Positions 3,263 to 32,343 of a stretch of DNA of 38,707 nucleotides are shown one piece after another. Positions within the stretch are counted from its first letter, which is position 1; each line of letters opens with the position of its first letter. The translations under genes and the position numbers were made by a program. Origin of the DNA: a virus; IMG/VR virus record IMGVR_UViG_3300036398_002300, positions 1 to 38,707 of that record; one strand, written 5' to 3'. The notes beneath the pieces are model-generated. The model ran no database searches. It was not told where the DNA came from and was given only the letters and a program-made list of their open reading frames with translations.

Positions 3263-3331
3263 AAAAGTGTCCTCTAACCGCACGGATAAATGCGTGGGTT
3301 ATAAAGAGTGGGCTAGGGCGATTCTTTGAGG

Positions 3332-4291: not shown

Positions 4292-4301
4292 CGAAACTCC
4301 G

Positions 4302-4967: not shown

Positions 4968-4999
4968 CGCTCCTGCTTATCGCGGAAGCGATCTCGACG

Positions 5000-6472: not shown

Positions 6473-6473
6473 G

Positions 6474-7619: not shown

Positions 7620-7622
7620 TTA

Positions 7623-8069
7623 TCAGCCCTTTACCTTTAGCAAAACGTCTCGCAGCCTGTTGGCTACGTCTTGGAGTTCATCGGTCAGGTCTGCCGCTTC
7701 CGAAGCGGAAAGGCGAGAGCCTTGCTGGTCGCGGAGCGCAGCGACGGTCTGCCCACCAAGAGCGGCTACCTGCGACAGAGCGCTGACCAGACTCTGGTCA
7801 CTGGCACTGAGTTTGGTGTCCCGGTTGCGGCGCTCTTTCTTTCTTCGGTTGTCGAGTATGCGCTCTACGTTGGAGAGAGCGTATATCGTTCCGGGGTCTA
7901 TGTAGCTAGAAGATACACGGCCCTTCAGCATGTTCTTGGCGATGTGGGTAACGAGGCCCCAGTCACGGTCACCGAAGTCTGCTTCCTTCTTCTTGCGCTG
8001 CTCGGAGACGATCTTCTTGGCCGCTTGCCAAGCAGCCTCGTCCTCCTCGTTCTTTATCCAAGCAGGCAT
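7623..8069 (-). CDS. Unknown phage protein with N-terminal AWIKNEEDEAAW motif, 148 aa
   Basis: The ATG at 8069 is chosen because GGAGG precedes it; the longer frame from 8117 has no comparable site. The N terminus (MPAWIKNEEDEAAWQAAK) has the W...E...W...AK pattern of small phage proteins of unknown role that often lie beside structural genes. The middle is strongly basic (NRRKKERRNRDTK) and the C-terminal 60 residues look helical, possibly coiled. It is the first gene of the leftward nrd-side run and lies just upstream of the structural-type gene that ends this operon's start. Confidence 0.7.
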   Translation of the reverse strand: MPAWIKNEEDEAAWQAAKKIVSEQRKKKEADFGDRDWGLVTHIAKNMLKGRVSSSYIDPGTIYALSNVERILDNRRKKERRNRDTKLSASDQSLVSALSQVAALGGQTVAALRDQQGSRLSASEAADLTDELQDVANRLRDVLLKVKG

Positions 8070-8151
8070 AGACCCTCCAACCGTACTCAAGGGTGCGCTT
8101 TGGCGAAACAACGACAAAGCGAGTCTCTAGCTCTTTTCTCGTAAAGACCGC

Positions 8152-8179
8152 TTGACATCGCTGCTCTTGCGTGTACTAT
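8152..8179 (+). promoter_or_regulatory. Sigma70-like promoter for the two plus-strand genes
   Basis: A TTGACA -35 box at 8152-8157 and a TACTAT -10 box at 8174-8179 are separated by 16 bases, 36 bases before the first gene's ATG. The flanking CGC before TTGAC recurs at two other promoters in this window (16954-16959 minus and 33311 plus). Confidence 0.7.
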
Positions 8180-8214
8180 AAGGATGGCAGTAAATATAAG
8201 TCTAGGAGACACCA

Positions 8215-8451
8215 ATGAATGCTATTTCTATTACTGTAGAAGAAGATGAAGTAAAGAAAGGTCATTGTAAAGTTGTATTTCGTGACAGCGAAGGCAAGTT
8301 GATCGGGGTTCCGCTTCGCGGTGTCGACAAGGCGACAGCCGAGGCAGCCAAGCAGAGCCTTGGCTTCGCCTTCGAGTACGGAGCCAAGCACGCGACCGAG
8401 GCGGTCTCTCGTCAGGTCAACCGACTCTGGTGGTCAGTGGAGTCAGTGTAG
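8215..8451 (+). CDS. Small unknown protein, 78 aa
   Basis: The ATG is preceded by TAGGAGA at good spacing and lies 36 bases after a strong promoter, so this is probably an early, well-expressed gene. The product begins with a short beta-like acidic stretch (ISITVEEDEVKKGHCKVVF), then DSEGKLIGVPL, then a helical C-terminal half. No domain is recognised. Being one of only two rightward genes within the leftward left third, it may be expressed at a different time from its neighbours. A role in host takeover would be a guess. Confidence 0.75.
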   Translation: MNAISITVEEDEVKKGHCKVVFRDSEGKLIGVPLRGVDKATAEAAKQSLGFAFEYGAKHATEAVSRQVNRLWWSVESV

Positions 8452-8464
8452 TGCACTCTAAGCA

Positions 8465-8734
8465 GTGGACGACATAGACCTGCTATCGAAGCGTGCTGCT
8501 GCCCTGCTGATGCAGTCAAAGAAGCATCAGATTTTCAAGGAAAAGAAAGAAGAGGCTGCCAAGCAATCTGAGGCAGCCTCTATCTATTTGAAGCTTGCTT
8601 CTCTATACGAGAATGACAAGACTCTGAGCGCTGAAGACCGTGACGTTGAAGTAGCAGAAAAGTATGAGGCAGCCGCTACTTGTCTCTCACGAGCTAAACG
8701 TCTTTGCAGGGATATAATACGCGGTAAAGAATGA
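8465..8734 (+). CDS. Small helical protein, 89 aa
   Basis: The frame starts at GTG 14 bases after the previous stop; no good Shine-Dalgarno sequence is visible, and an ATG sixteen codons in is the alternative start. The sequence is almost entirely helical and charged (KEKKEEAAKQSEAASIYLKLASLYEN) and resembles a single TPR-like or coiled helical hairpin. Its TGA is immediately followed by the stop of the oppositely transcribed gene, so the two converge with no spacer and no terminator between them. Confidence 0.6.
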   Translation: MDDIDLLSKRAAALLMQSKKHQIFKEKKEEAAKQSEAASIYLKLASLYENDKTLSAEDRDVEVAEKYEAAATCLSRAKRLCRDIIRGKE

Positions 8735-9376
8735 TCAGACCCCGTCTGATTCGTTACCTACCCAGAGAATAGCAAACGATTCTGTGCGTTCTACAATATC
8801 TGAAAATAACAAGTTTTCGTATTCCCAGTCGGACATGGGCAGAGCCTGCACCTTGGTGTCTTTATTGTATAGCGTCCAAACCAAGCTATCTTCATCGCGG
8901 AGCGCAATGCGAGTACGCGACTCGATGACGTTCTGCGTCGGCGTGTTCTGCGTTCCTCTGATAATGTAGCTGACGATGTCTGGCTCCTCATCCGGCTCTT
9001 CGGTACGGGAGCGTATTTGTTCGTTCTCTTCCAGAAGGCGAGCGATTTTGTTCTCTAGTTGAGACACGGTGACGTGAAAGGAGTCGGCTACTCCCCAGCC
9101 GCGGGCAGCGCTCTCTTCACTGGCGCGAAGCTGCTCTCGTAGCTTGGAGGTAGCGGTTCCGAACTGCGACTTGGCCTCACGCCAGTCCTTTTCGTAAGTC
9201 GCTGCCTGCTCTTGCGCTTTTGCCAAGTCGGTCCGTAGTCGCTCGTTCTCAGCGTAGAGTATGTCGGCGCGGCGCTCGGCAGATGTCTGAAGGGGGAGAC
9301 AGCAAGTCGCGCATCTCGTTGGGTAGCCGATGACGACCCGCGCTCCGCTGCTGCACTTGCAGACTTCGTCACTCAT
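8735..9376 (-). CDS. Zinc-finger plus coiled-coil protein, 213 aa
   Basis: The first 30 residues contain Cys at CKC and CATCC, a probable zinc-binding site. Residues about 35-120 are a long charged coiled coil (ERLRTDLAKAQEQAATYEKD...). The C-terminal part is acidic, then beta-rich, with many Trp/Tyr (WTLYNK, SDWEYENLLF). It closes the leftward run of small genes and overlaps its upstream neighbour by 8 bases, indicating coupling. Coiled-coil proteins with a zinc hook are common in phage accessory regions. The partner is unknown. Confidence 0.7.
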   Translation of the reverse strand: MSDEVCKCSSGARVVIGYPTRCATCCLPLQTSAERRADILYAENERLRTDLAKAQEQAATYEKDWREAKSQFGTATSKLREQLRASEESAARGWGVADSFHVTVSQLENKIARLLEENEQIRSRTEEPDEEPDIVSYIIRGTQNTPTQNVIESRTRIALRDEDSLVWTLYNKDTKVQALPMSDWEYENLLFSDIVERTESFAILWVGNESDGV

Positions 9377-9656
9377 GCCTGTCTTTCTCTAGACTCTCGG
9401 CGAGAATGTCAAGACCGCGCTCCAGCGCCAATCTCAGAGCATCCGATCTGTTCAGTGGCGGACCTCGGCCTTCCACCGGAGCCAGCCGCGGGTCATGCGG
9501 ACCTTCTGTCTGGAAGGCAATAGCGTCTATGCGCTGTAGAAGAGACGTCGGAAGACGTAGAGTCGTCTGCACGTCGTTTTCTGCCTTGCGTCCTCTCGGA
9601 CGATTACTGACCTTCTTCATGTCTTCTCCGGGCTTGTCAGCCTTTCGTGCGGTCAC
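9369..9656 (-). CDS. Ribbon-helix-helix DNA-binding protein, 95 aa
   Basis: The core reads TTLRLPTSLLQRIDAIA, then RSDALRLALERGLDIL, the strand-helix-helix order of CopG/Arc-type regulators, which bind operators as dimers through the strand. A basic arm (NRPRGRKAEN) precedes it. The GTG at 9656 makes a GTGA overlap with the upstream stop; an ATG at 9620 with GGAG at 5 bases is an equally credible start, giving 83 residues. A second RHH-like gene lies at 10854-11072. It is probably a phage transcription regulator; its operator was not found. Confidence 0.75.
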   Translation of the reverse strand: MTARKADKPGEDMKKVSNRPRGRKAENDVQTTLRLPTSLLQRIDAIAFQTEGPHDPRLAPVEGRGPPLNRSDALRLALERGLDILAESLEKDRHE

Positions 9657-9895
9657 AATTTCTTATCTCCGAACAGGTCAATCTGTTTCTCAGCGAGGTC
9701 TGCTGCACGTACCTCGTCCATCACCACGGAGCACGACGACGTGAGGCGCTGCATCAGCCGGTCGGCGCAGCCGTTGCTGTGACCGCAGACCTCGTAGCGC
9801 CAGCCGTCGTAGGTGACGGAGAGCGTGTGCATGACGTAGCCGAGGTCGCGGCTGCATCCGGCGCAGGGGCGCGGGGTGGTGCTGTTGGTGTTCAT
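9653..9895 (-). CDS. Small Cys-rich protein, 80 aa
   Basis: The ATG overlaps the previous stop (ATGA). Cys residues at CAGC near the N terminus, and further Cys and His in the middle (VCGHSNGC), suggest one bound zinc. The C terminus DLFGDKKL contains a short hydrophobic-acidic motif that resembles a peptide-docking tail, but this is speculative. It belongs to the run of coupled small genes. No family is recognised. Confidence 0.65.
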   Translation of the reverse strand: MNTNSTTPRPCAGCSRDLGYVMHTLSVTYDGWRYEVCGHSNGCADRLMQRLTSSCSVVMDEVRAADLAEKQIDLFGDKKL

Positions 9896-10200
9896 CGGAG
9901 AGTAGCTTCCAGAAATGCGTGTAGTTGGTCGGCTTGCTTATTTGCCTTGGCTGCGGCGTCACGTCGCTGTTCCGCAAATGCTTTGATCTTCTCGGGCGTG
10001 AAAAATGCCTTGAACGCTCTTATTGCCGTGCGCTCAGAAGCCGCCGCGCCCTTCTTGAAGCGGTCGATGTAGGTCGCTTCCCATTGAATAATCTTCTGAC
10101 CGCGCCACTTGCATACGACGTCGTAACCGTCCTTCGTTTTGCGTGCAGTGATCTCCGTGTCGCGCCAAAAAGGGTCAGCAACAAACTCAATAACGGTCAT
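9892..10200 (-). CDS. Small basic protein, 102 aa
   Basis: The ATG overlaps the stop of the upstream gene by the usual ATGA. The N-terminal half alternates strand-forming and charged residues (TEITARKTKDGYDVVCKWRG). The C-terminal half is a Lys/Ala-rich helix (PEKIKAFAEQRRDAAAKANK). The charge pattern would fit nucleic-acid or membrane-surface binding, but no domain is recognised. Confidence 0.65.
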   Translation of the reverse strand: MTVIEFVADPFWRDTEITARKTKDGYDVVCKWRGQKIIQWEATYIDRFKKGAAASERTAIRAFKAFFTPEKIKAFAEQRRDAAAKANKQADQLHAFLEATLR

Positions 10201-10490
10201 GTGTTATCCGGCTCTCCCAAGGCGGCAAGGGCGCAGCCAAGGCCGATGTCGATCCACTCAGCGGGGATGAGGTAGTCGTGTCGGACGAACCTACCGTCCT
10301 CGCCAACGGGTGTTTCGACGGGACGGCCCCGTCCTTCGCCGTAGAGGGTGCGAGCTTCGTCTACCACCGTCGTCGCCAGACGCAGCTTCTCCAGCACGAT
10401 CTCGATGACGTCCTCCATCGGGACGTACTCGTCAGCGTCGCCAGCGGCACGCAGACGCAGGAAGGCTTCTTCAAGACGGTCGCGGGTCAT
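10197..10490 (-). CDS. Small unknown protein, 97 aa
   Basis: The start is the ATG at 10490, with AAGGAG upstream, rather than an upstream in-frame Met. It therefore overlaps the end of the previous gene by 20 bases, and its ribosome site lies inside that gene. The protein is acidic, mostly helical at first (EEAFLRLRAAGDADEYVPMEDVIEIV), then contains GRFVRHDYLIPAEWIDIGLGCAL. No family is recognised. Confidence 0.62.
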   Translation of the reverse strand: MTRDRLEEAFLRLRAAGDADEYVPMEDVIEIVLEKLRLATTVVDEARTLYGEGRGRPVETPVGEDGRFVRHDYLIPAEWIDIGLGCALAALGEPDNT

Positions 10491-10857
10491 TGAGCACGCT
10501 CCTTTTCGCAGCATCACGCTTGAGTTGGGCGACCTCGGCGCGGAGTGCGTCGATCACGTCTTGGATGAAGTCAGGAGGCTCCACGCCTTCGTGTCTTGCC
10601 TTGTCGGGGTCGTAGCCCGCAGAGCGGGCGACGGCTTCAAGGCCCTGAACCCAACCCGGCTTGTATTCCGTTGTGGTCACACGCAGCTTGGCGCGGGCCT
10701 CGTCGCGCTCCCGTTCCAGCGATACGCAGCGCCGCTCTGCTTCCCGCAGACGTCGGAAGACGTCGTTTCGTTCTTCGATGGCCTTGTCCCGCTGCTCGAC
10801 GACCTTCTGCGCGAACACCGACCACGTCCCTTCGCCGGGACCGTCAAGTACGCTCAT
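10471..10857 (-). CDS. Coiled-coil protein, 128 aa
   Basis: The ATG overlaps the previous stop in CCATGA and is preceded by GGAGAAG. Residues about 17-60 form a strongly charged coiled coil (VVEQRDKAIEERNDVFRRLR...). A Trp-containing middle (EYKPGWVQGLEAVARSAGY) and a second short helix follow. It probably oligomerises. It resembles many small phage proteins of unknown role in early-gene clusters. Confidence 0.65.
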   Translation of the reverse strand: MSVLDGPGEGTWSVFAQKVVEQRDKAIEERNDVFRRLREAERRCVSLERERDEARAKLRVTTTEYKPGWVQGLEAVARSAGYDPDKARHEGVEPPDFIQDVIDALRAEVAQLKRDAAKRSVLNDPRPS

Positions 10858-11072
10858 GGCTTCTCCTCTCCTTCGTTCGTGGGCAGCGTCTTCTCAAGTT
10901 CAACCAAGCCACGACGGACGGCTTCGCGCAGCACGTCGCTGCGAGCCACGCTGCGTTGCAGGCCGTCCAGCATGGCAAGGCGGCTGATGAGCGCGTCGGC
11001 CCGGTCCACCGTCTCTTGTGAGACGCGGAAGCAGACCTGCCCATAGTTTACGTTCACGGTCTTGCGGGGCAC
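10854..11072 (-). CDS. Second ribbon-helix-helix-like protein, 72 aa
   Basis: The start is the GTG at 11072, directly after AAGGAGAAGCC; the longer open frame merely shadows the neighbouring gene. The sequence VNYGQVCFRVSQETVDRADAL gives a short strand and helix, and RSDVLREAVRRGLVELEK the second helix, the RHH order. It ends EGEEKP, with the next gene's Shine-Dalgarno sequence inside those codons. It overlaps the end of the upstream gene by 19 bases. It probably binds DNA as a dimer. It is paralogous in fold, but not closely in sequence, to the 9369-9656 product. Confidence 0.68.
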   Translation of the reverse strand: MPRKTVNVNYGQVCFRVSQETVDRADALISRLAMLDGLQRSVARSDVLREAVRRGLVELEKTLPTNEGEEKP

Positions 11073-11332
11073 GGCTTCTCCTTCGATTCCTCGTCGTGCC
11101 ACACGATCTCGGTGTGGTGCTTGCTGTTCGGGTCGTCGTGCCCGTGGATGCGCCACATCGTCTCGAAGTCGGCCCACACCGACGTCGAGCGTGCCGCCGT
11201 CAGCCAACGCAGGACCGTGGTGCCGTCGCTGAAAACGACGCCCTCGTACTGCGGAAGGTGGGGCGCGTTCACCTGATCGGTGTTGTGCGTGGCCGAGAGG
11301 TCGCCGCGACGGTAGACGGTGAAGCGCCTCAT
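11054..11332 (-). CDS. Small unknown protein, 92 aa
   Basis: The ATG overlaps the stop of the upstream gene. The central part, FSDGTTVLRWLTAARSTSVW, then a segment ending TEIVWHDE, is the pattern of a small beta-rich phage protein family I have seen only as hypothetical (DGT..RW...ST..W...HGH...I.W.D). The last codons SKEKPCPARP contain the next gene's ribosome site and GTG start, so the two genes overlap by 19 bases. Confidence 0.65.
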   Translation of the reverse strand: MRRFTVYRRGDLSATHNTDQVNAPHLPQYEGVVFSDGTTVLRWLTAARSTSVWADFETMWRIHGHDDPNSKHHTEIVWHDEESKEKPCPARP

Positions 11333-11799
11333 GGCTTCGTCCCTTCGATCTTGGCGAGCGCGGCTTCCAGCAGTTCTTCCAGCGGCGCTTTGTCGTCGAC
11401 GCCTACGGCAGCACGCAGGCGCGTCGTCACGTCGAGAAGGCGCTGCTGCCAGAGCGCCGGGGCGAACGTGAGTCTGATCGGTTCGTGCTCTTGCACCAGC
11501 CCCGATCCTTCCCCCACCAGCACGATGTTCGCCTTGACCTTCTCTGCTTCGACGACGGGTGCTGGTGAAGGAGACTCGGCCTTCTTGTCAGGCCAGCCGC
11601 ACCAACACGAACCCGTCGATTTCTCGGTCCATTCATGCCCGTTGGAGCAGCGGTATCCGGTCGTGGTCGTGTTGCTGTCATGCGTGTGGTGTCTGCCTTG
11701 CTCGTCGTAGAACGGTCGGCAGTTGAGCAGCGTGGTGGTGCCGCCTCGGTCGAAGACGCGGCTCGTCTTGCCTTCGGCTTTGCAGGTGGCGCAGATCAT
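11329..11799 (-). CDS. Zinc-ribbon protein, 156 aa
   Basis: The start is the ATG at 11799 in an AAGGAGAAGCCATGA junction. CATC at the N terminus, a Cys in LLNCRPF, then CSNGHEW and CWCGW suggest one or two zinc sites in the first 75 residues. The second half is a Pro/Ala linker and a helical tail (LWQQRLLDVTTRLRAAVGVDD). A fold that binds DNA, RNA or protein is possible. No specific family is recognised. Confidence 0.66.
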   Translation of the reverse strand: MICATCKAEGKTSRVFDRGGTTTLLNCRPFYDEQGRHHTHDSNTTTTGYRCSNGHEWTEKSTGSCWCGWPDKKAESPSPAPVVEAEKVKANIVLVGEGSGLVQEHEPIRLTFAPALWQQRLLDVTTRLRAAVGVDDKAPLEELLEAALAKIEGTKP

Positions 11800-12020
11800 G
11801 GCTTCTCCTTCACGTCGCGTGACAGCACAAACACTGGACCGCACGCGGTCACATGCTTGATACTTGTCCCGACAAGCCGCTCCACTTCCGCAAGCGAGTC
11901 GGCGGCGATGTGAATGACTCCGTGCTCACTATCGACGTAGGTGCCGTCTGCGAGACGGACGGTGTGGGTCGCAAGGTTCGTGACCGCACAGGTCACTTTC
12001 CAGAGTTTCAGAGCGTTCAC
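11796..12020 (-). CDS. Small beta-rich protein, 74 aa
   Basis: The start is the GTG at 12020, overlapping the upstream stop (CCGTGA) behind AAGGAGAAG; the longer open frame upstream of it is a shadow. The product (LKLWKVTCAVTNLATHTVRL...) alternates polar and hydrophobic residues, suggesting a small beta fold, and ends RDVKEKP, whose codons carry the next gene's ribosome site. No family is recognised. Confidence 0.62.
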   Translation of the reverse strand: MNALKLWKVTCAVTNLATHTVRLADGTYVDSEHGVIHIAADSLAEVERLVGTSIKHVTACGPVFVLSRDVKEKP

Positions 12021-12367
12021 GGCTTCTCCTTCTGGTCTGCGGCTCGCTGTAGATTCCTTAGCTGCCGCTGGTCGCCGTGCTTGACGTCGTGTCGGCCACT
12101 GCCCCAGCACACATCACAGACGTCTGTAGTAAAGGCTTGGCCACCGATACCTCCTCGCCAAGTAGAGGTGGAGCCATAAGCCCGGTAGCCGTATCCTTGG
12201 CATTTTGAGCAGGCGACACCGGCAATAGCGTGTGCCACCGATAGCAAGTGCCTAGCCGTGTCGACGAGGTCTTCTGGGTCAATACTCGCGTCGTACTGGT
12301 GAACCAGATACGCCGTTTGCTTCACCCAGTCGTCGCGCCTCTTGGTCTTTTCTTCCTCAAAGGTCAT
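12017..12367 (-). CDS. DnaJ-type zinc-motif protein, 116 aa
   Basis: Two copies of the CxxCxGxG motif of DnaJ cysteine-rich domains are visible, CSKCQGYG and CDVCWGSG, separated by about 30 residues and expected to bind one zinc. The N-terminal half is helical (FEEEKTKRRDDWVKQTAYLV). The ATG at 12367 has GGGAG at 5 bases and overlaps the upstream gene by 11 bases. It has no J-domain, so it is not a full co-chaperone. Such isolated motifs are common in phage early genes and may bind host proteins or RNA. A related short protein is at 14018-14242. Confidence 0.7.
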   Translation of the reverse strand: MTFEEEKTKRRDDWVKQTAYLVHQYDASIDPEDLVDTARHLLSVAHAIAGVACSKCQGYGYRAYGSTSTWRGGIGGQAFTTDVCDVCWGSGRHDVKHGDQRQLRNLQRAADQKEKP

Positions 12368-12662
12368 GGTTGCTCCCGTCACCCTCGACCTTGGCCAGCG
12401 CGGAGCGGGCGAGGTCGGCTATGGCATCAAGCTCTTTGTTTCCCTCGATGCCGTGTTCCAGCCACCACTGCCGCAGGCGTTCGCAGACCAGCCACATATC
12501 AGGTGACGCAGCGACCAGTCTGGCGTTCGCCTGACCGACTTTCTCGAAAGGCCCGTACACGAAAGCTACCGCGCCAACAGCTTCGGAGAGCGAGCCTTCG
12601 CGTGGCTCAGCCTCAATAATACCACGGTTTCCTACCTTCCATGGACCGGGTGTGTGGCTCAT
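12357..12662 (-). CDS. HTPGPW-family small phage protein, 101 aa
   Basis: It begins MSHTPGPWKVG and contains NARLVAASPDMW, the two signatures of a widespread small phage protein family of unknown function (HTPGPW... NARLIAAAPELL). The ATG at 12662 lies in an AAGGAGAAGCCATGA junction. The C-terminal third is helical (ELDAIADLARSALAKVEG). A paralogue lies at 14244-14573. Family membership is recognised by pattern; the biochemical role is not known to me. Confidence 0.78.
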   Translation of the reverse strand: MSHTPGPWKVGNRGIIEAEPREGSLSEAVGAVAFVYGPFEKVGQANARLVAASPDMWLVCERLRQWWLEHGIEGNKELDAIADLARSALAKVEGDGSNHDL

Positions 12663-13042
12663 GGCTTCTCCTTCGTCACGGTCCATTCTTTGATTTCGAT
12701 GAAGTCCGTGTCGCTAGTCCACTTGTCAGTGTCGGCTTTCTTCTGCATGGCCCATCCTTCATCGAAGTTCAAACGCGGTGAAAAGCGTGATGTGCCGTCG
12801 TTCGCGGCCTGAATCATCCCGTCGAGGTCAGCCTTGTGCTTTACCAGCAACTTCTCAACGGCGACCAGTGCGCTTTCACGCGTGGCGTGGACGGAGTGAA
12901 CTTCGCCGCCTTCGTATCGGCAGCCCTCGGTCACGATCCACACACACGCGGACGACGGTGGTGCCTTCAAGTGCCCGACGCGCCAGCATTGGTACCCTCG
13001 GGCATCAACGCGCCCGCACGTCGAACAAACTTCATCGGTCAC
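12659..13042 (-). CDS. Small protein with N-terminal zinc finger, 127 aa
   Basis: The start is a GTG overlapping the upstream stop, behind GGAGGAAG. CSTC near the N terminus, followed by YQCWRVGHL, looks like a short zinc site. The rest alternates Glu/Lys-rich helix and strand (ACVWIVTEGCRYEGGEVHSV). The protein ends TVTKEKP, part of the shared junction sequence. No family is recognised. Confidence 0.65.
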   Translation of the reverse strand: MTDEVCSTCGRVDARGYQCWRVGHLKAPPSSACVWIVTEGCRYEGGEVHSVHATRESALVAVEKLLVKHKADLDGMIQAANDGTSRFSPRLNFDEGWAMQKKADTDKWTSDTDFIEIKEWTVTKEKP

Positions 13043-13158
13043 GGCTTCCTCCGCAGCTTTGCGACCACGGCGTCAATAACGCCGTCGATCACGCGGCCCG
13101 TGATGGCAGACGTGACGCCAAAGATCAGGCTGAACACGATGACGTCGGTCATAGTCAT
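13039..13158 (-). CDS. Single-span membrane peptide, 39 aa
   Basis: The ATG at 13158 overlaps the upstream stop (CCATGA). Residues about 5-20 (DVIVFSLIFGVTSAIT) form one hydrophobic segment. An amphipathic stretch and a basic tail (AKLRRKP) follow. It is too short for a usual holin, though membrane spanins and small inhibitors have similar size. The longer open frame that contains it is a shadow of its neighbour. Confidence 0.5.
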   Translation of the reverse strand: MTMTDVIVFSLIFGVTSAITGRVIDGVIDAVVAKLRRKP

Positions 13159-13430
13159 GGCGTCACCTTCCGCAGCGCATCTGTCATGGCGCGGCCCTTC
13201 TCGTTGACGGCTTTCTTCTCGATGTTGTGGTCGCAGTAGGGAACGCCGCCGCAGCACTGGCACTCGGCAGCGGAGACGAACTCGTCGACGGCTCGCGCCA
13301 ACACGCGCAGGCGTTCAACCTCTTGCACCAGCCACACGACGTCGTCCTTGCCCCACGGCACGGCCATCGGCAGCGTGACGGGGATGTTCCACTTGGTCTT
13401 GATCTCGTCGAGCAAGTCGCGGGTCGGCAT
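13155..13430 (-). CDS. Small protein with coiled N-terminal half and Cys cluster, 91 aa
   Basis: The ATG at 13430 follows the upstream stop with a one-base TGATG overlap; a GTG one codon earlier is possible. The first half has a conserved-looking Trp-rich segment (MAVPWGKDDVVWLVQEVERL). ECQCCGGVPYCDHN near residue 60 is a likely zinc site. Trp plus Cys motifs of this sort occur in small phage proteins of unknown role. Confidence 0.62.
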   Translation of the reverse strand: MPTRDLLDEIKTKWNIPVTLPMAVPWGKDDVVWLVQEVERLRVLARAVDEFVSAAECQCCGGVPYCDHNIEKKAVNEKGRAMTDALRKVTP

Positions 13431-13996
13431 CACTCATCCCCGCCGACGATACGGCGCTCGGTTGACGGCTCGACGGGAGCGGGCTGAGGCGCGGGAGCAG
13501 GGTCGACCTTAGTCTGTGGTGACGTGGAGGCGATGACGCGCTTTGCGCCGTCGATAACCTTCTGTGGCAGACGCCACTCGTCGTTGCACACCTGCACCTC
13601 GACAACCTTCGCCTCGGCGATGGCGGCGATGAGGGGCTTGGTGGCAGTCAGCTTGATTGTCTCCGAGACAAGCCGTCCAGAGATCACGTCGCCCTCGTGG
13701 TCAGCCGCCGGAAGGCGAACCCTCTTACCGTCGATGAGCATGGCCACAGAATGACACTCAAGGTAGGTCCAGCCTTCACGCGCCATCCAGAACTGGATCG
13801 AGTAGTGGGCATCCTGATTCTCTTCGGTGACGACCTTGCCCTTGTGCATAGCCGCGATGATAAAGACCGTGCTCCGTCCACCGACAAGCTCGGTGCTGGA
13901 CATCATTACCGTCATGTCCTTGAAGCGGTCATACTCGGACCGCCATTCAGGCGGGGTGTAGCCGAGGAGCGAGAAAACGATTGCGAGTTGAAGCAT
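13430..13996 (-). CDS. Possibly secreted or anchored unknown protein, 188 aa
   Basis: The ATG is preceded by AAGGGGA. The first 12 residues (MLQLAIVFSLLG) are hydrophobic without a basic start, so a signal or anchor is possible but weak. The middle (STVFIIAAMHKGKVV... YLECHSVAMLIDGKRVRLP) is beta-rich. The tail is Pro-rich (DPAPAPQPAPVEP), typical of a flexible linker. It is the longest gene of the small-gene run. No family is recognised. Confidence 0.65.
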   Translation of the reverse strand: MLQLAIVFSLLGYTPPEWRSEYDRFKDMTVMMSSTELVGGRSTVFIIAAMHKGKVVTEENQDAHYSIQFWMAREGWTYLECHSVAMLIDGKRVRLPAADHEGDVISGRLVSETIKLTATKPLIAAIAEAKVVEVQVCNDEWRLPQKVIDGAKRVIASTSPQTKVDPAPAPQPAPVEPSTERRIVGGDE

Positions 13997-14017
13997 AACA
14001 TTCCCCTTATGCGTGCA

Positions 14018-14242
14018 TTATGTGTTGCGTTTGCCCGTGCCACCACAGCGAAGGCACAGCTTGGTCAATCCGGTTGCGTCTTGTCTTTTGTCAAGGCCGC
14101 TGCCAGCGCAAAGGCGGCAGGCATTTTCGTCAGTGTTATCTGGAACAGCTTCTTCAAACAAATCAGCGTATCGATCAGCCGTAGCTTGGTTGCCAAACCA
14201 ACTCGTCACGCGACCGTTGGTTTTCATCCATCGTGTGTTCAT
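14018..14242 (-). CDS. Short protein with two CxxCxGxG motifs, 74 aa
   Basis: CRLCAGSG and CLRCGGTG are DnaJ-type zinc half-sites, here only about 20 residues apart. The N-terminal half (RWMKTNGRVTSWFGNQATADRYADLF) has a strand-helix pattern. The ATG lies one base after the previous stop. It resembles the zinc part of the 12017-12367 product but lacks its long helix. It may bind protein or RNA. The role is unknown. Confidence 0.68.
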   Translation of the reverse strand: MNTRWMKTNGRVTSWFGNQATADRYADLFEEAVPDNTDENACRLCAGSGLDKRQDATGLTKLCLRCGGTGKRNT

Positions 14243-14243
14243 A

Positions 14244-14573
14244 TCATCTAACCTGTAAAGCCTTACTTATTGCGCTGCTAAGTACGTCTTCTACTTGCTT
14301 TGCGAGTTCTTTGAAGGCTCTAGAGTTATGGTCAAGAACATGAATGTTACGAGTAAAAGAAAGAGCAATCTCACAAGCAGACAGTAGCTCTGGTGCCGTT
14401 GCTATCAAAGTCGAGTTGGCGTCAACAACGGCGTTGTATTCCTCGTCCCCTGTCTCTGCGCTGAAGGACACACCGGGCGCGTAGACGTCAGCTACTGTTC
14501 TGTCCTTTCCAGAGGACACAACGACAAGGCCATCTCCCAAAGCTCTCCACGGTCCGGGCGTATGTCTTACCAT
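14244..14573 (-). CDS. HTPGPW-family protein, second copy, 109 aa
   Basis: It starts MVRHTPGPWRALG and contains ANSTLIATAPELLSACE, matching the same two signatures as the 12357-12662 product, so these are paralogues of one family. The middle (DVYAPGVSFSAETGDEEY) differs. The ATG has GGGGTGA before it. It is the first gene of the leftward small-gene run. The copies are too different to be a recent tandem duplication. Confidence 0.78.
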   Translation of the reverse strand: MVRHTPGPWRALGDGLVVVSSGKDRTVADVYAPGVSFSAETGDEEYNAVVDANSTLIATAPELLSACEIALSFTRNIHVLDHNSRAFKELAKQVEDVLSSAISKALQVR

Positions 14574-14614
14574 TTTTCACCCCTTCATAACCTTGAAGCC
14601 CACTCGGTCAGGTA

Positions 14615-15676
14615 TCACCTGATAGAAGCGGAGCCGGATGTGCTGAGAACCGAGATGTTCGTGGGGTTCTCAAACCAGCTTCCGTTGTTGATGGGAATAG
14701 GGTTCGAGTAGCCCGAGCGACTGACTGGAGTGTTCCTCGTCAGGGTCAGGACCTGAGTCGCCGGTCCTCCATCAACGCGAGCGCAGGCAACCAGACCAGT
14801 CCCTACCTCGTTTGAGATGACAAGGTCGCCACCAGCGGTCAGGGTCACAAGGCCGGTCAGTTCCTCGTTTCCAGAGCAGCGGTCCTGCGGATGAGCACCA
14901 GAGGATGCACTGGTGAACCGGTCACCAGACACAGAGACAAGGCGACCACCACCGAACTGCCCGCGCCAGAGCGGGCCAGAGGTCTGGTCATCGACCTCAA
15001 AGACCGTGAACTGCCAAGTGAACGAAGCCTCGGTCCTGTCGTTGAACGTGCTCTCAACCCCATCCATGTCGAGCGTCAGGTCAATACTGACCGTCCATAC
15101 ACCGAGCAGAGGCTTCTCAACACCGGTCGTTCCACCGTTGTTGTTACCGCCACCACCAGACGGCGGCTGGTCGACAGGAAGGGAGCCAGAGGCGTCAGGA
15201 ACGCAGCGGCCGTCTTCACAGCGCTCGTCACAGTCACAGACCGGGTTACAGGCAGACGCGCAGATACCGCCAAGGCAGATGTTCCCTTCGGAGCAGGACG
15301 AGGCACACTCCGTTGCGTTGTTGGAGAGCAACTGGACGTCGGCACTGACGCTCCCGCCCGGAGAAAGAGTAGCGCAGGAGCTTTGGCGCTGCCGCAGACC
15401 CGGTCGGTCAGCCACCACCCCGACGACGAGAGACCGGCTCAACGGAGGAACAAGCAGGGAATAGGTTCCCTGACTGTTCGTCGTCGTGGTCCCCGTCGGC
15501 GGGCTGGTGGAGATAAGAGCGCCCTCAACCGGCTGCCCCGTCTGGGCGTTCACGACCCGACCAGAGATGAAGCCTTCCTGCTCAGGTTGGTCACCGCTGT
15601 AGTCGGAGTTGTCACCGCTACCATCATAGTAGCCGCCGCACGAAGCCAAGAAGAGGCAGAGGATGAGGGCACGCAT
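14615..15676 (-). CDS. Lipoprotein with carboxypeptidase-regulatory-like domain and Cys-rich segment, 353 aa
   Basis: The start is the ATG at 15676, 2 bases after the upstream stop. The signal MRALILCLFLASCGG has a lipobox LASC, so the mature protein would begin at Cys and be lipid-anchored in a Gram-negative envelope. Residues about 35-80 (SGRVVNAQTGQPVEGALIST then TNSQGTYSL) match a carboxypeptidase regulatory-like beta domain. Twelve Cys follow in roughly 45 residues (CSEGNICLGGIC, CNPVCDCDERCEDGRCVP), then a Gly/Asn-rich linker and a beta-rich C-terminal domain. This architecture is bacterial in style and unusual in a phage. Host-surface remodelling or superinfection exclusion are possible roles, not shown. 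Confidence 0.75.
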   Translation of the reverse strand: MRALILCLFLASCGGYYDGSGDNSDYSGDQPEQEGFISGRVVNAQTGQPVEGALISTSPPTGTTTTNSQGTYSLLVPPLSRSLVVGVVADRPGLRQRQSSCATLSPGGSVSADVQLLSNNATECASSCSEGNICLGGICASACNPVCDCDERCEDGRCVPDASGSLPVDQPPSGGGGNNNGGTTGVEKPLLGVWTVSIDLTLDMDGVESTFNDRTEASFTWQFTVFEVDDQTSGPLWRGQFGGGRLVSVSGDRFTSASSGAHPQDRCSGNEELTGLVTLTAGGDLVISNEVGTGLVACARVDGGPATQVLTLTRNTPVSRSGYSNPIPINNGSWFENPTNISVLSTSGSASIR

Positions 15677-15678
15677 GG

Positions 15679-16350
15679 TCACTGCACCGTCATGCGAGCG
15701 ACAACGGTCACGGTGGAGCCGGTGTCGGACGTGATCGTGAAGCTCGTCTGGTACGAGCCAGCCGAGAGTCCGCCGCGGTTGACGGTCAGCATTCGAGAGG
15801 CCGTCTGCGTGGACACGGTCCCGGTGAACGGCTCTTGGATGGAGAGCCACGGATCGAGCGGCTGGTTGATCGTGAAGTTCAGCGATGAGCCGACGTCAGA
15901 CGAGATGTTCATCTGGAGCGAAGACGTCGTGTTGCCGAAGTTCAGTTCCGAAGGGCTGACGTTCAGACCACCAGCAAGCGTCGGCTGGAGGTTGAAGTTG
16001 ATGACCTTGTTCTCTTGGTCGGCGACCGAGGCAGACGCAGTATCCTGCTCGTAGCCGTTGGCCGAAGCGACCAGCAGGTAAAGCTGGTTCGGGGTAAGCT
16101 GCTCGGTGAGCAGGTACTTGCCGTCGGAGTTCGTGATGTCCTCCGTAGTTGGAGGGTTCGTGGAAACACGAACGCCCTGAATGGGCTGGTTCGTCACTCG
16201 GTCGACAACGCGACCGCTGAGCGACGTGACGCCAACCTGCGGGTCACGGCTGCGACCATCGTCAGTACCGGGTTCTCCGCCGCAGGAGAGCATAAAGAAA
16301 GTAATCGCGAAGAAAGTAATCGCGTCAGTTTGTTCAATAGTTTGTGACAT
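15679..16350 (-). CDS. Lipoprotein with carboxypeptidase-regulatory-like and BACON-like domains, 223 aa
   Basis: The N terminus MSQTIEQTDAITFFAITFFMLSCGG is a long hydrophobic signal with lipobox MLSC. The first domain (SGRVVDRVTNQPIQGVRVST... NSDGKYLL) is the same fold as in the downstream lipoprotein. The second (LNVSPSELNFGNT... PWLSIQEPF... NRGGLSAGSYQTSFTI) has the pattern of BACON-type surface beta domains. The first ten residues and the leader are copied from the neighbouring gene at 16376-16801, and the ITFF-AITFF core comes from a 15-bp tandem repeat, so the signal seems recently assembled. It is co-transcribed with the 14615-15676 gene. Confidence 0.74.
   Translation of the reverse strand: MSQTIEQTDAITFFAITFFMLSCGGEPGTDDGRSRDPQVGVTSLSGRVVDRVTNQPIQGVRVSTNPPTTEDITNSDGKYLLTEQLTPNQLYLLVASANGYEQDTASASVADQENKVINFNLQPTLAGGLNVSPSELNFGNTTSSLQMNISSDVGSSLNFTINQPLDPWLSIQEPFTGTVSTQTASRMLTVNRGGLSAGSYQTSFTITSDTGSTVTVVARMTVQ
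16295..16324 (-). repeat. 15-bp tandem duplication in signal-peptide codons
   Basis: AAGAAAGTAATCGCG occurs twice in a row at 16295-16309 and 16310-16324. It encodes the repeated hydrophobic ITFF units just before the lipobox and lengthens the signal core by five residues. Confidence 0.85.
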
Positions 16351-16380
16351 TTTGTTTCCTTGGTTTGTTATAGGTTCAAA
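16325..16380 (-). repeat. Direct repeat, copy B (leader and first codons)
   Basis: This 56-base block matches 16776-16832 except for one missing T. It contains the stop codon of the upstream gene, the intergenic leader, the start codon and the first ten codons (MSQTIEQTDA). More diverged similarity continues to about 16458 in the coding tail. It is likely a product of unequal recombination. Confidence 0.92.
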
Positions 16381-16801
16381 CAGCAGTCAGCTTATACTTC
16401 TTGCCATCAATCTCCACAACCTTACCATCACAAGTATCCTTATTGAGTTTTTCAAGTCCGTTATGCTGTAGGGAGAAGGCGACGGCGACGGCGAGGGTGA
16501 GGGCGAGGGTGCTGCGAGGCCTCCTCCCGTCAAGGGCGAGGGTGAGGGCGAAGGCGAGGGCGAAGGTGAGATTGTGCTTTCCATCAAAGTCAAAAACAAG
16601 CTTGTTGTTGACAACAAGTTGATCACCTTTGCGAGAAAACTTATATTCCCGCTTATTCTTCAAAAGTGGATAATTATATTCCTTGCGAAGTCGGTTTGTC
16701 TCTGTAAACCAAAAATCATTCAGCACATAATCAACACCCTCTTCCATATTATGGAAGGTATTACGAATAGCAGCATCAGTTTGTTCAATAGTTTGTGACA
16801 T
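16376..16801 (-). CDS. Chimeric small protein with a repeat-encoded hydrophobic hairpin, 141 aa
   Basis: The frame starts MSQTIEQTDAAIRNTFHNM and has a polar, Tyr-rich first half. The middle is TFALAFALTLAL, a short polar turn DGRRPRS, then TLALTLAVAVAFSL: two hydrophobic stretches that could insert as a membrane hairpin. This part is written by a GARGGY-type DNA repeat. The tail GLEKLNKDTCDGKVVEIDG is homologous to the broken short frame upstream (16828-16912). The start follows the shared leader; a ribosome site (AAGGAAACAAA) is modest. No family is recognised. Confidence 0.55.
   Translation of the reverse strand: MSQTIEQTDAAIRNTFHNMEEGVDYVLNDFWFTETNRLRKEYNYPLLKNKREYKFSRKGDQLVVNNKLVFDFDGKHNLTFALAFALTLALDGRRPRSTLALTLAVAVAFSLQHNGLEKLNKDTCDGKVVEIDGKKYKLTAV
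16471..16570 (+). repeat. Purine-rich GARGGY hexanucleotide repeat in two arms
   Basis: On the plus strand, units such as GAGGGC, GAGGGT and GAAGGC run from 16471 to 16512 and again from 16532 to 16570, separated by a roughly 20-base spacer that contains the palindrome GAGGCCTC. The plus strand is G-rich and free of long T runs, so G-quadruplex or triplex structure is possible. On the minus strand one frame reads (SP)n and the used frame reads alternating Ala/Leu/Thr. Confidence 0.88.
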
Positions 16802-16832
16802 TTTGTTTTCCTTGGTTTGTTATAGGTTCAAA
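16776..16832 (-). repeat. Direct repeat, copy A (leader and first codons)
   Basis: This is the partner of 16325-16380, with a single-base difference in length. Copy A precedes the 16376-16801 gene and carries the original-looking stop codon, leader and ATG. Confidence 0.92.
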
Positions 16833-16912
16833 ACTTGCGACCGTCAATCTGGACAACCTTGCCCGCAAGTATCTGACTTCAACTTTTCAAGCCCAACAAG
16901 AACCTTGTTCAT
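16828..16912 (-). pseudogene. Frameshifted short paralogue of the 16376-16801 tail
   Basis: An ATG at 16912 behind a perfect AAGGAGG opens MNKVLVGLEKLKSDTCGQG and stops after 22 codons at 16844. Compared with the tail GLEKLNKDTCDGKVVEIDGKKYKL of the next gene, a 2-base deletion after the TGC codon shifts the frame. With it restored, the bases read GKVVQIDGRKF and end at the TGA at 16828-16830, the same stop that sits inside the direct repeat. It could also be a live 22-residue peptide in the shifted frame. Confidence 0.6.
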
Positions 16913-16930
16913 TGGTTCCTCCTTGAAGGA

Positions 16931-16959
16931 ACAATAAACACAGAACTTTGTTTCGTCAA
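16931..16959 (-). promoter_or_regulatory. Sigma70-like promoter of the lipoprotein locus
   Basis: On the minus strand, TTGACG (16959-16954) and TATTGT (16936-16931) are separated by 17 bases, with GCGC before the -35 box as at the other two promoters. Transcription would start near 16924, only about 12 bases before the ATG at 16912, so the transcript would begin almost at the AAGGAGG site. Confidence 0.62.
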
Positions 16960-16995
16960 GCGCGATTGTCGAGTTTTTCGACACAACTTTGAATA

Positions 16996-17044
16996 GCAAG
17001 CTTTTGCAAGCTCTATGCCCCTAATATCAGGGCGTAAAGCTTGC
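16996..17044. other. Nested stem-loop between small genes
   Basis: GCAAGCTTT (16996-17004) pairs with AAAGCTTGC (17036-17044). Inside it GCCC (17017-17020) pairs with GGGC (17030-17033). No U-run follows on either strand, so it is not a clear intrinsic terminator. It overlaps the end of the short frame at 17013-17099 and precedes the promoter at 16959. Confidence 0.55.
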
Positions 17045-17099
17045 ATATCATAAACATTAGTATTGCACTAAATATGCCAACTTCAATAGAAAATGGCAT
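17013..17099 (-). CDS. Putative 28-aa membrane peptide
   Basis: An ATG two bases after the stop of the upstream gene opens MPFSIEVGIFSAILMFMICKLYALILGA, then TAG. The peptide is one continuous hydrophobic helix. There is no strong ribosome site, but the position allows coupling with the gene ending at 17102. The AT-rich composition differs from the flanking early genes. A chance frame is possible at this length. Confidence 0.35.
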   Translation of the reverse strand: MPFSIEVGIFSAILMFMICKLYALILGA

Positions 17100-17101
17100 A
17101 G

Positions 17102-17302
17102 TTAGTGCTTTGCCAGCTTCTGGCGAAGACGGTCCAAGGAGGTACGGCCGTCGGCTGGTAGCTCGCTGTTCTCAAGGCTTTCAAGAACGGCTTTGCAGGC
17201 AGCAACCAGTTCGTCTCGCTGCTCCTTGAGACGCTGTGCTTCCAGCCGGGCTTTGTCGCGCTCGGCTCTGATGTTGTCGTAAGCTATGGCGTATGCGTTC
17301 AT
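17102..17302 (-). CDS. Small coiled-coil protein, 66 aa
   Basis: The ATG overlaps the stop of the endonuclease gene (CTATGA). The product is a charged helix throughout (IRAERDKARLEAQRLKEQRDELV), then a short linker and a basic end (RLRQKLAKH). It resembles the small helical proteins of the early run. The tight overlap with an endonuclease suggests the latter's end was fitted to a pre-existing gene, or that the two moved together. Confidence 0.6.
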   Translation of the reverse strand: MNAYAIAYDNIRAERDKARLEAQRLKEQRDELVAACKAVLESLENSELPADGRTSLDRLRQKLAKH

Positions 17303-19068
17303 AGTGTCATCTCGTATACCAAGTTACCGCAATCCCAGATACGGTCCCAACCGTTGGACAGAACGTTTTCTACTTCTGACTTTGCTGGGTCGAAGTTATC
17401 GAGCAGTTCTGGCAGCCTATGCTTTTGAAAGCGTACGCGGGAGTGCAGCACCGTTGGTTCTTCTGGTCGGAAGTAGAAGTAGTTGGGCGCAGAGGCTCTG
17501 GTCAGCTTGAAGCCGCTGCTCTCGTACATGCCCCCGGCTGACCATCGCCTATCGGCAAAAGACACTATGTGCTTCGGCCTGTAGTTTATAACAAAGTGCT
17601 TCAGTATCTTTGAGAAGCCACCTACGACGTAGTGACCGGCAAGGTTGGCAAAGCGAAGAAGCTCGAACGAGTTATCTCCTGTGCCGTAACGATTGTGGCC
17701 GAAAGTCGCCAGCGCTACCAGCGTGCCTTTGTGATAGCAGCCCAGCTTAACGCGGCTTCCGACCGTTCCTTGCAGATGGTTACGCTCTAGGAACCCAGAC
17801 GCTTCTTGTGTTGTTACAACACAAACCTCAGTGTTTCTGGCCATGATCTTATTTGAGGTCTTACCCATCTTGTTAAGCAGCATACTTTGAACCAATGGCT
17901 TGTTTACTGCCCACTCGTTGCTGAACACTCGTAGAAGCCTTATACCTTTTCTTTCCAAGGCTTGGAGAGCCTGAACCCGCACAGAGCGAGTCACGCCTGA
18001 GAGTTCAGACGTTTGGACTACGTCATCGAAGACGACGCCTACCTGCTGGTCTGAAGCAAGGGCATCAACGAGCACACCGTCTACTCTTACGCCTCTTTCA
18101 ATAGAGACGTGCGACGATAAGAAGTTCTGGAGGTCGATGACCTCCGCCGGTCTGGTCTTGGCAACGTGTGCTCTCTGAGCGTTCTCTCTACGAGAAATCC
18201 AAGCTAGGTTCTCAAGCCGAGGGTCTTGTGGGTTTTCGTTGAGGTGACCAACGACAAAGCCTTCGGTCTTGGGAGGCAGGAATGCCTCTGCTACCAGAAC
18301 ATGAATCATCTTGTTCTGGTAACCAGACGAGGTCCTAAGCTGAACCCTCAAGTACCCCTGACCAGTGGACTGAGGGTTCATGAGCCTACGGCTTTTCGTC
18401 GAGAACACCCGACCCTGAGATGAAATCCAATAACCAGACAGGTCATCTTTGAGACGCTGCCACTCTTCCTTTGCTAGAGGCTCAACAAAGGACGTTGGCG
18501 GCTCGTCAGTCCCTTGGTGCGGTCCTTCTCTCTTCTTGCCTCCGGCACCGGGACGCCAAGTGCCCGGTGCTCGCGGTCGAGGTAAGGGAGGAACCTCTGT
18601 CAGGTCGGCGTAGGTAGTACCGTATACAGCGTTGTGTATTGTTCCTTCGGTTACTTTTAGCTCAGAGGCTATCTGCCGTAGTGAGCAGCCAGTGGAGCAC
18701 CTTCTCCGTGCTTCATAGACCTGTTCTTCTGTCAGAACCGCCTTTGTCCCACGCCTACGCTGGCGCAGGACGGCAGAAGCGCGAAGAGCGTTTTCCTGTC
18801 TGGTTACCCATTCCAAGTTGGAAACGCTGTTGTTCTCTGTGTTTCCGTCCTTGTGGTCGACCACGTAGTCTGTTGTTGGTCTAGGGCCGAGCCAAGTGGT
18901 GGCGATAAGCTCGTGTACGAAGCGTGTCTCGCCTTGCAATATAACTATAAAGTACCCGACCTTCGACTTCTTTTGCTTTATGGTCTTGTTGGTCAGCAAC
19001 GACCAGACGGTGCCATCCCGGCTGACGAGGTAGTTACCGACGTTGCGCCAGTCTTCAGGTGAGAGCAT
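17299..19068 (-). CDS. Composite homing endonuclease: two NUMOD4/HNH units, HTH, Vsr-like and C-terminal GNAT-like region
   Basis: Residues (from the TTG at 19134) 27-117 hold a NUMOD4-type start (EDWRNVGNYLVSRDG) and an HNH core (VVDHKDGNTENNSVSNLEWV). Residues 135-175 are a helix-turn-helix (SLRQIASELKVTEGTIHNAV). Residues 222-322 repeat the NUMOD4/HNH plan, with H297 kept but the preceding Asp replaced (VVGHLNENPQD). Residues 345-415 resemble the Vsr/EDxHD nuclease fold (GVRVDGVLVDALASDQQVG...). The end (LGCYHKGTLVALATFGHNRYG... SFADRRWSAGGMYESSGF) is a region often joined to such nucleases in large phages. The ATG at 19068 is preferred; the longer TTG start has no ribosome site. It lies beside the capsid gene. 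Confidence 0.82.
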   Translation of the reverse strand: MLSPEDWRNVGNYLVSRDGTVWSLLTNKTIKQKKSKVGYFIVILQGETRFVHELIATTWLGPRPTTDYVVDHKDGNTENNSVSNLEWVTRQENALRASAVLRQRRRGTKAVLTEEQVYEARRRCSTGCSLRQIASELKVTEGTIHNAVYGTTYADLTEVPPLPRPRAPGTWRPGAGGKKREGPHQGTDEPPTSFVEPLAKEEWQRLKDDLSGYWISSQGRVFSTKSRRLMNPQSTGQGYLRVQLRTSSGYQNKMIHVLVAEAFLPPKTEGFVVGHLNENPQDPRLENLAWISRRENAQRAHVAKTRPAEVIDLQNFLSSHVSIERGVRVDGVLVDALASDQQVGVVFDDVVQTSELSGVTRSVRVQALQALERKGIRLLRVFSNEWAVNKPLVQSMLLNKMGKTSNKIMARNTEVCVVTTQEASGFLERNHLQGTVGSRVKLGCYHKGTLVALATFGHNRYGTGDNSFELLRFANLAGHYVVGGFSKILKHFVINYRPKHIVSFADRRWSAGGMYESSGFKLTRASAPNYFYFRPEEPTVLHSRVRFQKHRLPELLDNFDPAKSEVENVLSNGWDRIWDCGNLVYEMTL

Positions 19069-19154
19069 GACCAAGGCTAGCACAGGCCAGACGCTCGTGG
19101 GTGGATTTCTGTAGTCAGGCTGCTGTAGTACCAAAGGCGAGAGCGAGAGAAAAG

Positions 19155-19206: not shown

Positions 19207-20313
19207 TCAGGCGCGGCTGCCGAGCGAGACGGCGCGGTCCATGACGAACATCGACTCGATGCCCATCATGTAGAAGCCACGGCGCGGGGCACCGAGCGGG
19301 TAGTGATTGATCTCAGTCGACTGAAGCTCGCGACGGACACCACGCTGGCCGAGGGCCACCGGGGTACCGAGCACGAACACCTCGCCCGGCTGGAGAACGC
19401 GGAGCGTCTCATAGCGGAAGCCGTCGGTGATGAGCTTCATGTTCAGGAGGCTGCCGAGGCGGCCTTCCATGATCAACTGGTACTTATGGACAGGCTCCCA
19501 CCACGACGTGAAGCTCGGGTCGGCAATCATGTCGTCCCAGAGGTCGAAGCTGAAGAGCATGTGCGCCGCCGGGATACCGTTCGCAGCAACCTGCGTACGG
19601 AGAGCGGTGAGCACCTGCGGGGTGAACGTCGCGAACGACACCGGAGCGTTGAACACGCCCGAGGTCGAGAGCAGCAGCGAGCGCAGGATGCGGTCCTGAC
19701 GGACCATCAGCGCCTCAAGGCTGTCTTGGAACTTCGCATCCAGAAGGTCCGGGCCAGCCTGAGCAAGCTCGCGCTCCTCAATCAGGACCTGACACTGGAG
19801 GTAGTAGTCCGCAGGGTAGAAGTACGCCTGCTCGATGATCTGAGCGATACCCTCGCCGTCATTCACCACTTGGAACGCCGTGACGTCCTTGCGGCGGATG
19901 CGAACGCGGTTGTCCTGACCGTCGACCACGTCCTTGCGAGCAAGGACCTGCGACGTGAAGCCCTGACGGTTCAGGGTCTCCCACACGTCCTCAGCGAACA
20001 CCTCGCCCATGACCTTCATGCGGTCGTCGCCCGAGTTGAACGCCGAGAGCAGGGTCTCGTGGCGCTCGGCCTTCGCCTGAAGCTTGGCCTTCTGCTCGGT
20101 CGGGTCCTCGAAGCCAGCGCCGATCTCGCCACCCTGCACCATCGAGTGCAGAGCGTTGATCTTCGCAGCAAGGTCCTTCATGTCGTAGGCGTTGATGTCG
20201 CCTGCGTCATTGGTCATGCGGCCACCAGCAGCAACAACGTTGCCACCAGACTTCTTCGCGAATCCGGGCATACCGCCAATGACGGGGTCCCGCGTCTTCT
20301 TATACAGGTTCAT
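19207..20313 (-). CDS. Major capsid protein (HK97 fold), 368 aa
   Basis: The ATG has AGAGGAGATG upstream, one of the best ribosome sites in the window, as expected for the most abundant protein. The N-terminal 60 residues look like a propeptide-like arm. The body has helical and strand segments in the order of HK97-type capsids (AYFYPADYYLQCQVLIEERE; RQDRILRSLLLSTSGVFNAPV) and ends with an alternating strand region (GAPRRGFYMMGIESMFVMDRAVSLGSRA). It is the last gene of the head module and is closed by a strong terminator, with a hairpin-rich leader upstream. Whether the N-terminal arm is cleaved by the neighbouring protease is not shown. Confidence 0.88.
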   Translation of the reverse strand: MNLYKKTRDPVIGGMPGFAKKSGGNVVAAGGRMTNDAGDINAYDMKDLAAKINALHSMVQGGEIGAGFEDPTEQKAKLQAKAERHETLLSAFNSGDDRMKVMGEVFAEDVWETLNRQGFTSQVLARKDVVDGQDNRVRIRRKDVTAFQVVNDGEGIAQIIEQAYFYPADYYLQCQVLIEERELAQAGPDLLDAKFQDSLEALMVRQDRILRSLLLSTSGVFNAPVSFATFTPQVLTALRTQVAANGIPAAHMLFSFDLWDDMIADPSFTSWWEPVHKYQLIMEGRLGSLLNMKLITDGFRYETLRVLQPGEVFVLGTPVALGQRGVRRELQSTEINHYPLGAPRRGFYMMGIESMFVMDRAVSLGSRA

Positions 20314-32309: not shown

Positions 32310-32343
32310 GACTCTAGTGTAAGGCTTTCGGAGGACAGAGTCC

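Follow-up and report, generated by a model that had tools for sequence, protein, structure and literature searches.

Two adjacent predicted lipoprotein genes with related N-terminal halves in an accessory block of a myovirus-type phage record

Results

Gene arrangement and predicted signal peptides

The window analysed here is a 38.7-kb virus record (IMG/VR IMGVR_UViG_3300036398_002300), a genome fragment of an uncultured giant phage, with a myovirus-type head module consisting of a terminase with an intein, a portal, a protease and a major capsid protein (MCP). At the positions given in a preliminary description of this DNA, two adjacent and co-oriented genes were found on the minus strand, lip2 (15,679..16,350; 223 aa) and lip1 (14,615..15,676; 353 aa), both of which are predicted from their sequence to encode lipoproteins. 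A 411-aa version of lip1 with a distant GTG start was rejected because its lipobox would lie far from the N-terminus. A signal peptide results when translation begins at the ATG at 15,676, which follows the lip2 stop codon after a gap of 2 bp (15,677..15,678, minus strand). Given this short gap and the fact that no clear Shine-Dalgarno sequence of its own is seen ahead of the lip1 ATG, translational coupling of lip1 to lip2 is likely. A sigma-70-like promoter match (TTGACG-17-TATTGT; 16,931..16,959, minus strand), which is weak evidence, lies upstream of the cluster.

Both proteins possess the lipobox pattern that had been described for them, LASC in lip1 and MLSC in lip2. The predicted signal peptides are MRALILCLFLAS in lip1, ending before C13, and MSQTIEQTDAITFFAITFFMLS in lip2, ending before C23, and each is followed by CGG. 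When a strict lipobox filter was run over every ORF of at least 60 aa in the window, the neighbours lip1 and lip2 were the only matches on the minus strand, where most genes lie; three more matching frames on the plus strand were taken to be chance. The uncharged h-region ending in Cys of the PROSITE PS51257-type lipobox is present in lip1 (ALILCLFLASC, C13) and in lip2 (FFAITFFMLSC, C23). The first seven residues of lip1 (MRALILC) include an early Arg, which places this protein under the full PROSITE PS51257-type rule, while those of lip2 (MSQTIEQ) contain neither Lys nor Arg. For this reason lip2 is classed by its sequence as lipoprotein-like, not as a member under that rule. Its n-region, MSQTIEQTDA, is net negative and, having no Lys or Arg, would be unfavourable for Sec export; since the signal peptide bears no positive charge, the predicted anchoring of lip2 is less secure than that of lip1. 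Both proteins have Gly at +2/+3 and no Asp at +2. Gly at +2 fits outer-membrane sorting by the rule for E. coli, which may not be the host of this phage.

Domain composition of lip1 and lip2

Domains were assigned where the score exceeded the Pfam curated cut-off. On this basis the carboxypeptidase-regulatory-like domain previously noticed in both proteins was recovered, as CarboxypepD_reg (PF13620) at residues 37-116 of lip1 (E 2.6e-10; 40.9 bits against a cut-off of 32.3) and as CarbopepD_reg_2 (PF13715) at residues 44-123 of lip2 (E 2.3e-12; 47.2 bits against 32.2). The BACON-like domain reported for one of the lipoproteins is likewise present, with BACON_2 (PF19190) matching residues 129-218 of lip2 over profile positions 2-93 of 94 (E 9.2e-8; 32.3 bits against 25). 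Lip1 had no match in the PHROG families, and lip2 had none with an E value under 0.4.

Behind its domain, lip1 carries a Cys-rich stretch with nine Cys in 35 residues (124-158), a Gly/Asn/Pro linker (residues about 165-188) and a C-terminal region (about 189-353) that has no family match in Pfam, PHROGs or NCBIfam. The preliminary description had recognised the Cys-rich stretch correctly but counted 12 Cys in it; the mature chain has 12 Cys besides the anchor Cys13, namely the nine of this stretch together with C101, C267 and C298. The Cys-rich segment is probably disulfide-bonded. The "long beta domain" also proposed for lip1 was not confirmed; run on single sequences without an alignment, AlphaFold2 gave low-confidence models that are not usable for either protein (pLDDT 36 for each).

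Paralogy of the pair and a copied leader in lip2

Alignment of lip1 with lip2 from the signal-peptide core through the carboxypeptidase-regulatory domain, hereafter the stalk domain, gave 36% identity over 97 aa (E 3e-11) and 41% within the stalk domain alone. The lipobox stretch is kept between them (FLASCGG in lip1, FFMLSCGG in lip2), and their distal parts have no convincing likeness to one another. Within what was searched, the two proteins are each other's nearest relatives. Given the homology of the N-terminal halves, the pair reads as paralogues, in which one predicted anchored stalk was duplicated and bears two different heads.

The 5′ end of lip2 has a relative of its own nearby. Repeat search and local alignment revealed that the lip2 leader, together with the first 10 codons and the tail of the upstream ORF (16,322..16,459, minus strand), is a diverged copy of a second leader at 16,773..16,894 (minus strand), with a local score of 72.5 against 26.5 for the best of 200 shuffles. 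This second copy stands before an ORF at 16,376..16,801 (minus strand), which shares MSQTIEQTDA with lip2, has no family match and is uncertain as a real gene. The likeness ends at lip2 codon 10, and at this junction an exact 15-bp tandem duplication starts (16,295..16,324, minus strand), which the signal peptide of lip2 shows as AITFF-AITFF. Mean hydropathy over the 11 residues preceding the lip2 Cys is 1.91, and would be 0.76 with a single AITFF unit. The simplest reading is that a copied phage leader took the place of the original lip2 n-region and that the duplication made the hydrophobic core longer. No recurrence of the duplicated leader was found in the other viral contigs in which it was sought.

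The ORF at 16,376-16,801 also holds a degenerate hexamer array (GGCGAG-type; about 16,470-16,567) with a GC-rich palindromic centre. The array reads as two short hydrophobic stretches on the minus strand and as GEGEGE-like repeats on the plus strand, and is possibly a repeat insertion.

An accessory block behind the major capsid gene

The MCP gene (19,207..20,313, minus strand) belongs to phrog_2522 (E 7.6e-41). Its product is about 30% identical to the MCPs of PaBG, BcepSauron, Lu11, Motura and Yoloswag, whose genomes measure about 200-310 kb, and 34-55% identical to those of other IMG/VR contigs, the largest measuring 424 kb. The nearest relatives by MCP identity are the viral contigs L002 (88%), L003 (82%) and L004 (81%).

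Genes lip1 and lip2 belong to an accessory block of about 20 small ORFs (8,118..17,298, minus strand; 9.2 kb). An HNH/NUMOD4 homing endonuclease gene (17,299..19,134, minus strand) forms one edge and a conserved gene (7,623..8,117, minus strand) the other. The homologue of this conserved gene comes directly after the MCP gene in L003, at a distance of 117 bp, and in L004 it comes after the MCP gene and an HNH gene that is homologous to 17,299-19,134 and occupies the same place. The block is missing here in both contigs, and its ORFs had zero matches in the syntenic loci or other fetched parts of L003 and L004. Behind the MCP gene of L002 there are different genes, comprising HNH genes and a PAPS-reductase/DUF3440 gene. 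Since the content behind the MCP gene differs among the window and these three relatives, the site looks like an insertion hotspot. The L002 segment (2,857-7,929) contains three HNH-type genes besides the PAPS-reductase/DUF3440 gene, a different cargo in the same place, and the ORF after the latter gene may be a ParB-like partner (IbrA/IbrB-like).

Two PHROG families were recognised within the block, phrog_1273 twice and phrog_36853 once. The phrog_1273 members, which have an HTPGPW motif, lie at 12,357-12,686 and 14,244-14,573 with other small genes between them. Between 10,852 and 12,672 a start-site motif, AGGAGAAGCCATG/GTG, is directly repeated ahead of several small block ORFs, which suggests a common strong ribosome-binding cassette. 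The codon log-scores of lip1 (-1.14) and lip2 (-1.01) are both within the span of the core phage genes (-0.85 to -1.33) and so speak against contamination or a very recent capture.

Elsewhere in the window, the terminase large subunit (28,452-32,345) is split by an intein (Intein_splicing E 5.6e-14) that carries a LAGLIDADG domain; the terminase homologues of contigs L006 and L012 have no intein there, and similarity to them jumps from residue 220 to 679. Positions 5,000-6,481 encode a 493-aa protein with a separate N-terminal domain and a long pentapeptide-repeat-like C-terminal half, which is conserved in L004 (44%). No tRNA genes were found in the 38.7-kb window, and no defence families were found with PADLOC.

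Distribution in phages and bacteria

The preliminary description held that phages rarely carry such proteins, and our searches agree. In tblastn against 50,697 phage records lip1 had no match and lip2 had one weak domain match, MT835562. This unannotated, bacterial-looking "UNVERIFIED" record was rejected as a phage relative, because the matching ORF encodes a TonB-receptor-like protein of 820 aa and its neighbour is a bacterial-looking gene. At E 0.01, CarboxypepD_reg was absent from related viral records (20 + 5, overlapping) and BACON_2 from 22 of them, these records not being rated complete; the same searches were positive in bacterial control genomes (11-12 of 14 and 3 of 14, respectively). 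The absence of the pair from related viral records, which are fragmentary, is suggestive. Pattern scans of IMG/VR contigs found neither protein, a weak negative given that a short exact peptide match was required. In one relative (G002, contig L013, 3,573-4,183), two adjacent small lipobox ORFs of 79 and 96 aa were seen, MKFLFPILALALVGAC and MKKTLIALSALALFALGC; they do not resemble lip1 or lip2 and are possible lysis or exclusion lipoproteins.

Among plasmids no close homologue of lip1 or lip2 was found. A pattern scan of GTDB genomes, again insensitive because of the short exact peptide match required, gave nothing for lip1; for lip2 it gave one domain match, in Armatimonadota. Within 291 Armatimonadota genomes, ten had matches, consisting of single domains or little more at 30-37% identity, and none had a full-length relative of either protein; Armatimonadota were rejected as donor on account of these domain-level matches. 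The search for bacterial homologues suggested earlier has thus returned domain-level matches only, and the possible acquisition from a host is not supported, given the lack of a close bacterial homologue in these partly insensitive searches and the phage-like codon usage.

Discussion

The genes, their domains and lipoboxes, their paralogy and tight linkage, the insertion context and the absence from sampled relatives are directly supported by the data. We propose that lip1 and lip2 may form a duplicated accessory (moron-type) lipoprotein pair of an uncultured jumbo myovirus. In the infected cell one transcript would carry both genes, and the products would pass through Sec, undergo cleavage at the lipobox and become lipid-anchored; Gly at +2/+3 and the absence of Asp at +2 make a Gram-negative outer membrane the probable site. 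The transthyretin/Ig-like carboxypeptidase-regulatory domain common to both would serve as the stalk, with a BACON-type beta sandwich as the head of lip2 and the Cys-rich segment plus the region without known family as that of lip1. These heads may bind an envelope glycan or protein, by which the cell surface or a receptor would be changed or shielded during infection, and the likeliest benefit would be superinfection exclusion. To the general reading, that the two proteins are predicted envelope-anchored modifiers of the infected cell, we give a probability of roughly 45%; superinfection exclusion specifically, which is argued by analogy, is a tentative suggestion with clearly lower odds. We counted in favour of the general reading the curated Pfam domains, the adjacency of the sole minus-strand lipobox ORFs, the lip1 signal peptide, the paralogy, the 2-bp spacing, the phage-like codons, a block missing in L003 and L004 as accessory genes would be, the PHROG families inside that block and the precedent of T5 Llp. 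Counted against it were the structural nature of the conserved neighbours, by which late expression is possible, the negative lip2 n-region without Lys or Arg, the sizes of 223 and 353 aa compared with small known exclusion lipoproteins, the lack of detected sequence in common with phage families, the unusable structure models, and the link of crAss-like BACON domains to tail-region genes instead of envelope lipoproteins (PMC10136315, PMC9853417).

The main rivals to envelope modification are two. Bacterial lipoprotein genes might have been captured as passenger DNA near the HNH endonuclease, with no selected role in infection, which we consider unlikely though worth weighing: the stalk domain is widespread among bacteria, as in the control genomes above, the inserted block is missing in relatives and has an HNH gene at its edge, and the 5′ end of lip2 looks newly joined to the copied leader. 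However, no close bacterial homologue was found in the searches above, the codon usage matches the phage core, the frames are intact in two genes 2 bp apart, and the paralogues have diverged to 36% with different heads. Somewhat less probable still is that lip1 and lip2 are virion- or tail-associated adhesins, as has been supposed for the BACON proteins of crAss-like phages, and that their hydrophobic N-termini are not lipoprotein signals. The conserved neighbours are indeed head and structural genes, the BACON protein of crAss-like phages sits near tail genes (PMC10136315), and the lip2 N-terminus is a poor signal peptide; yet lipoboxes are found in both proteins, the lip1 signal peptide is short and canonical, the FLASCGG/FFMLSCGG stretch is kept between the paralogues, and close relatives keep the flanking structural genes without having the block.

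An assembly chimera, with bacterial DNA wrongly joined into a phage contig, appears improbable. The contig is metagenomic, the block is missing in relatives, and an imperfect repeat of 120-140 bp lies just upstream of the pair, but PHROG families occur inside the block and the codon usage is phage-like. Conserved genes also stand in the expected order on both flanks, so that two false joins would be needed, and since the repeat copies differ, they are not accounted for by a collapse of identical copies. Least probable of all, in our view, is a function in lysis or its timing as outer-membrane spanin-type lipoproteins. The lipoproteins of phages with Gram-negative hosts do include outer-membrane spanins, but known o-spanins are small and have no such globular domains, and family searches recognised no endolysin or holin beside the lip pair.

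Comparison with known systems

Like bacterial CarboxypepD_reg surface proteins (N-domains of SusC/TonB receptors, surface lipoproteins), lip1 and lip2 have the Ig/transthyretin-like domain soon after the export signal; they differ in having no TonB-receptor barrel, and the bacterial matches, confined to the domain at 30-37% identity, belong to open frames about 380-1,900 aa long. The BACON domains of crAss-like phages are located near tail genes and form tandem repeats in some lineages (PMC10136315, PMC9853417), and for those of gut phages a role in binding glycans or the cell surface has been proposed (PMC9853417, PMC10136315); one bacterial BACON domain, that of BoGH5A, showed no binding to any substrate tested (PMC9853417). 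The predicted beta sandwich of lip2 is of the same type, Pfam describing BACON_2 as "Viral BACON domain". In contrast to the crAss-like proteins, lip2 combines just one such domain with a lipobox and belongs to a relative of PaBG/BcepSauron-type jumbo myoviruses.

The T5 protein Llp is a phage outer-membrane lipoprotein that blocks the receptor FhuA; exclusion lipoproteins aimed at TonB-dependent transporters have been suggested to be common in coliphages, and small size is a common feature of the known ones (PMC9586334). As with Llp and Cor, lip1 and lip2 would be phage-encoded lipoproteins of the infected-cell envelope, Llp being anchored (PMC9586334) and our pair predicted to be so. Llp and Cor are small and, as far as known, lack domains of the CarboxypepD_reg, BACON and Cys-rich kinds. 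Homology to them was not found by PHROG family (for lip2 none below E 0.4) or by match to the phage records, a collection that may not include T5.

The phage lipoproteins known to alter the infected-cell envelope are mainly tiny coliphage proteins that plug a receptor. It is conceivable, although we think it improbable, that a jumbo phage duplicated a lipid-anchored stalk and added two unrelated heads, so that the infected cell would bear a coat or receptor mask of phage making; such proteins would form a modular class of phage lipoproteins that remodel the envelope, separate from the small Llp/Cor plugs. Even as passengers, the pair would document a phage joining a secretory gene to the leader of a gene of its own. 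If the modular reading is true, a paired stalk-plus-head design in a jumbo phage, placed in a block without counterpart in close relatives, would widen the class.
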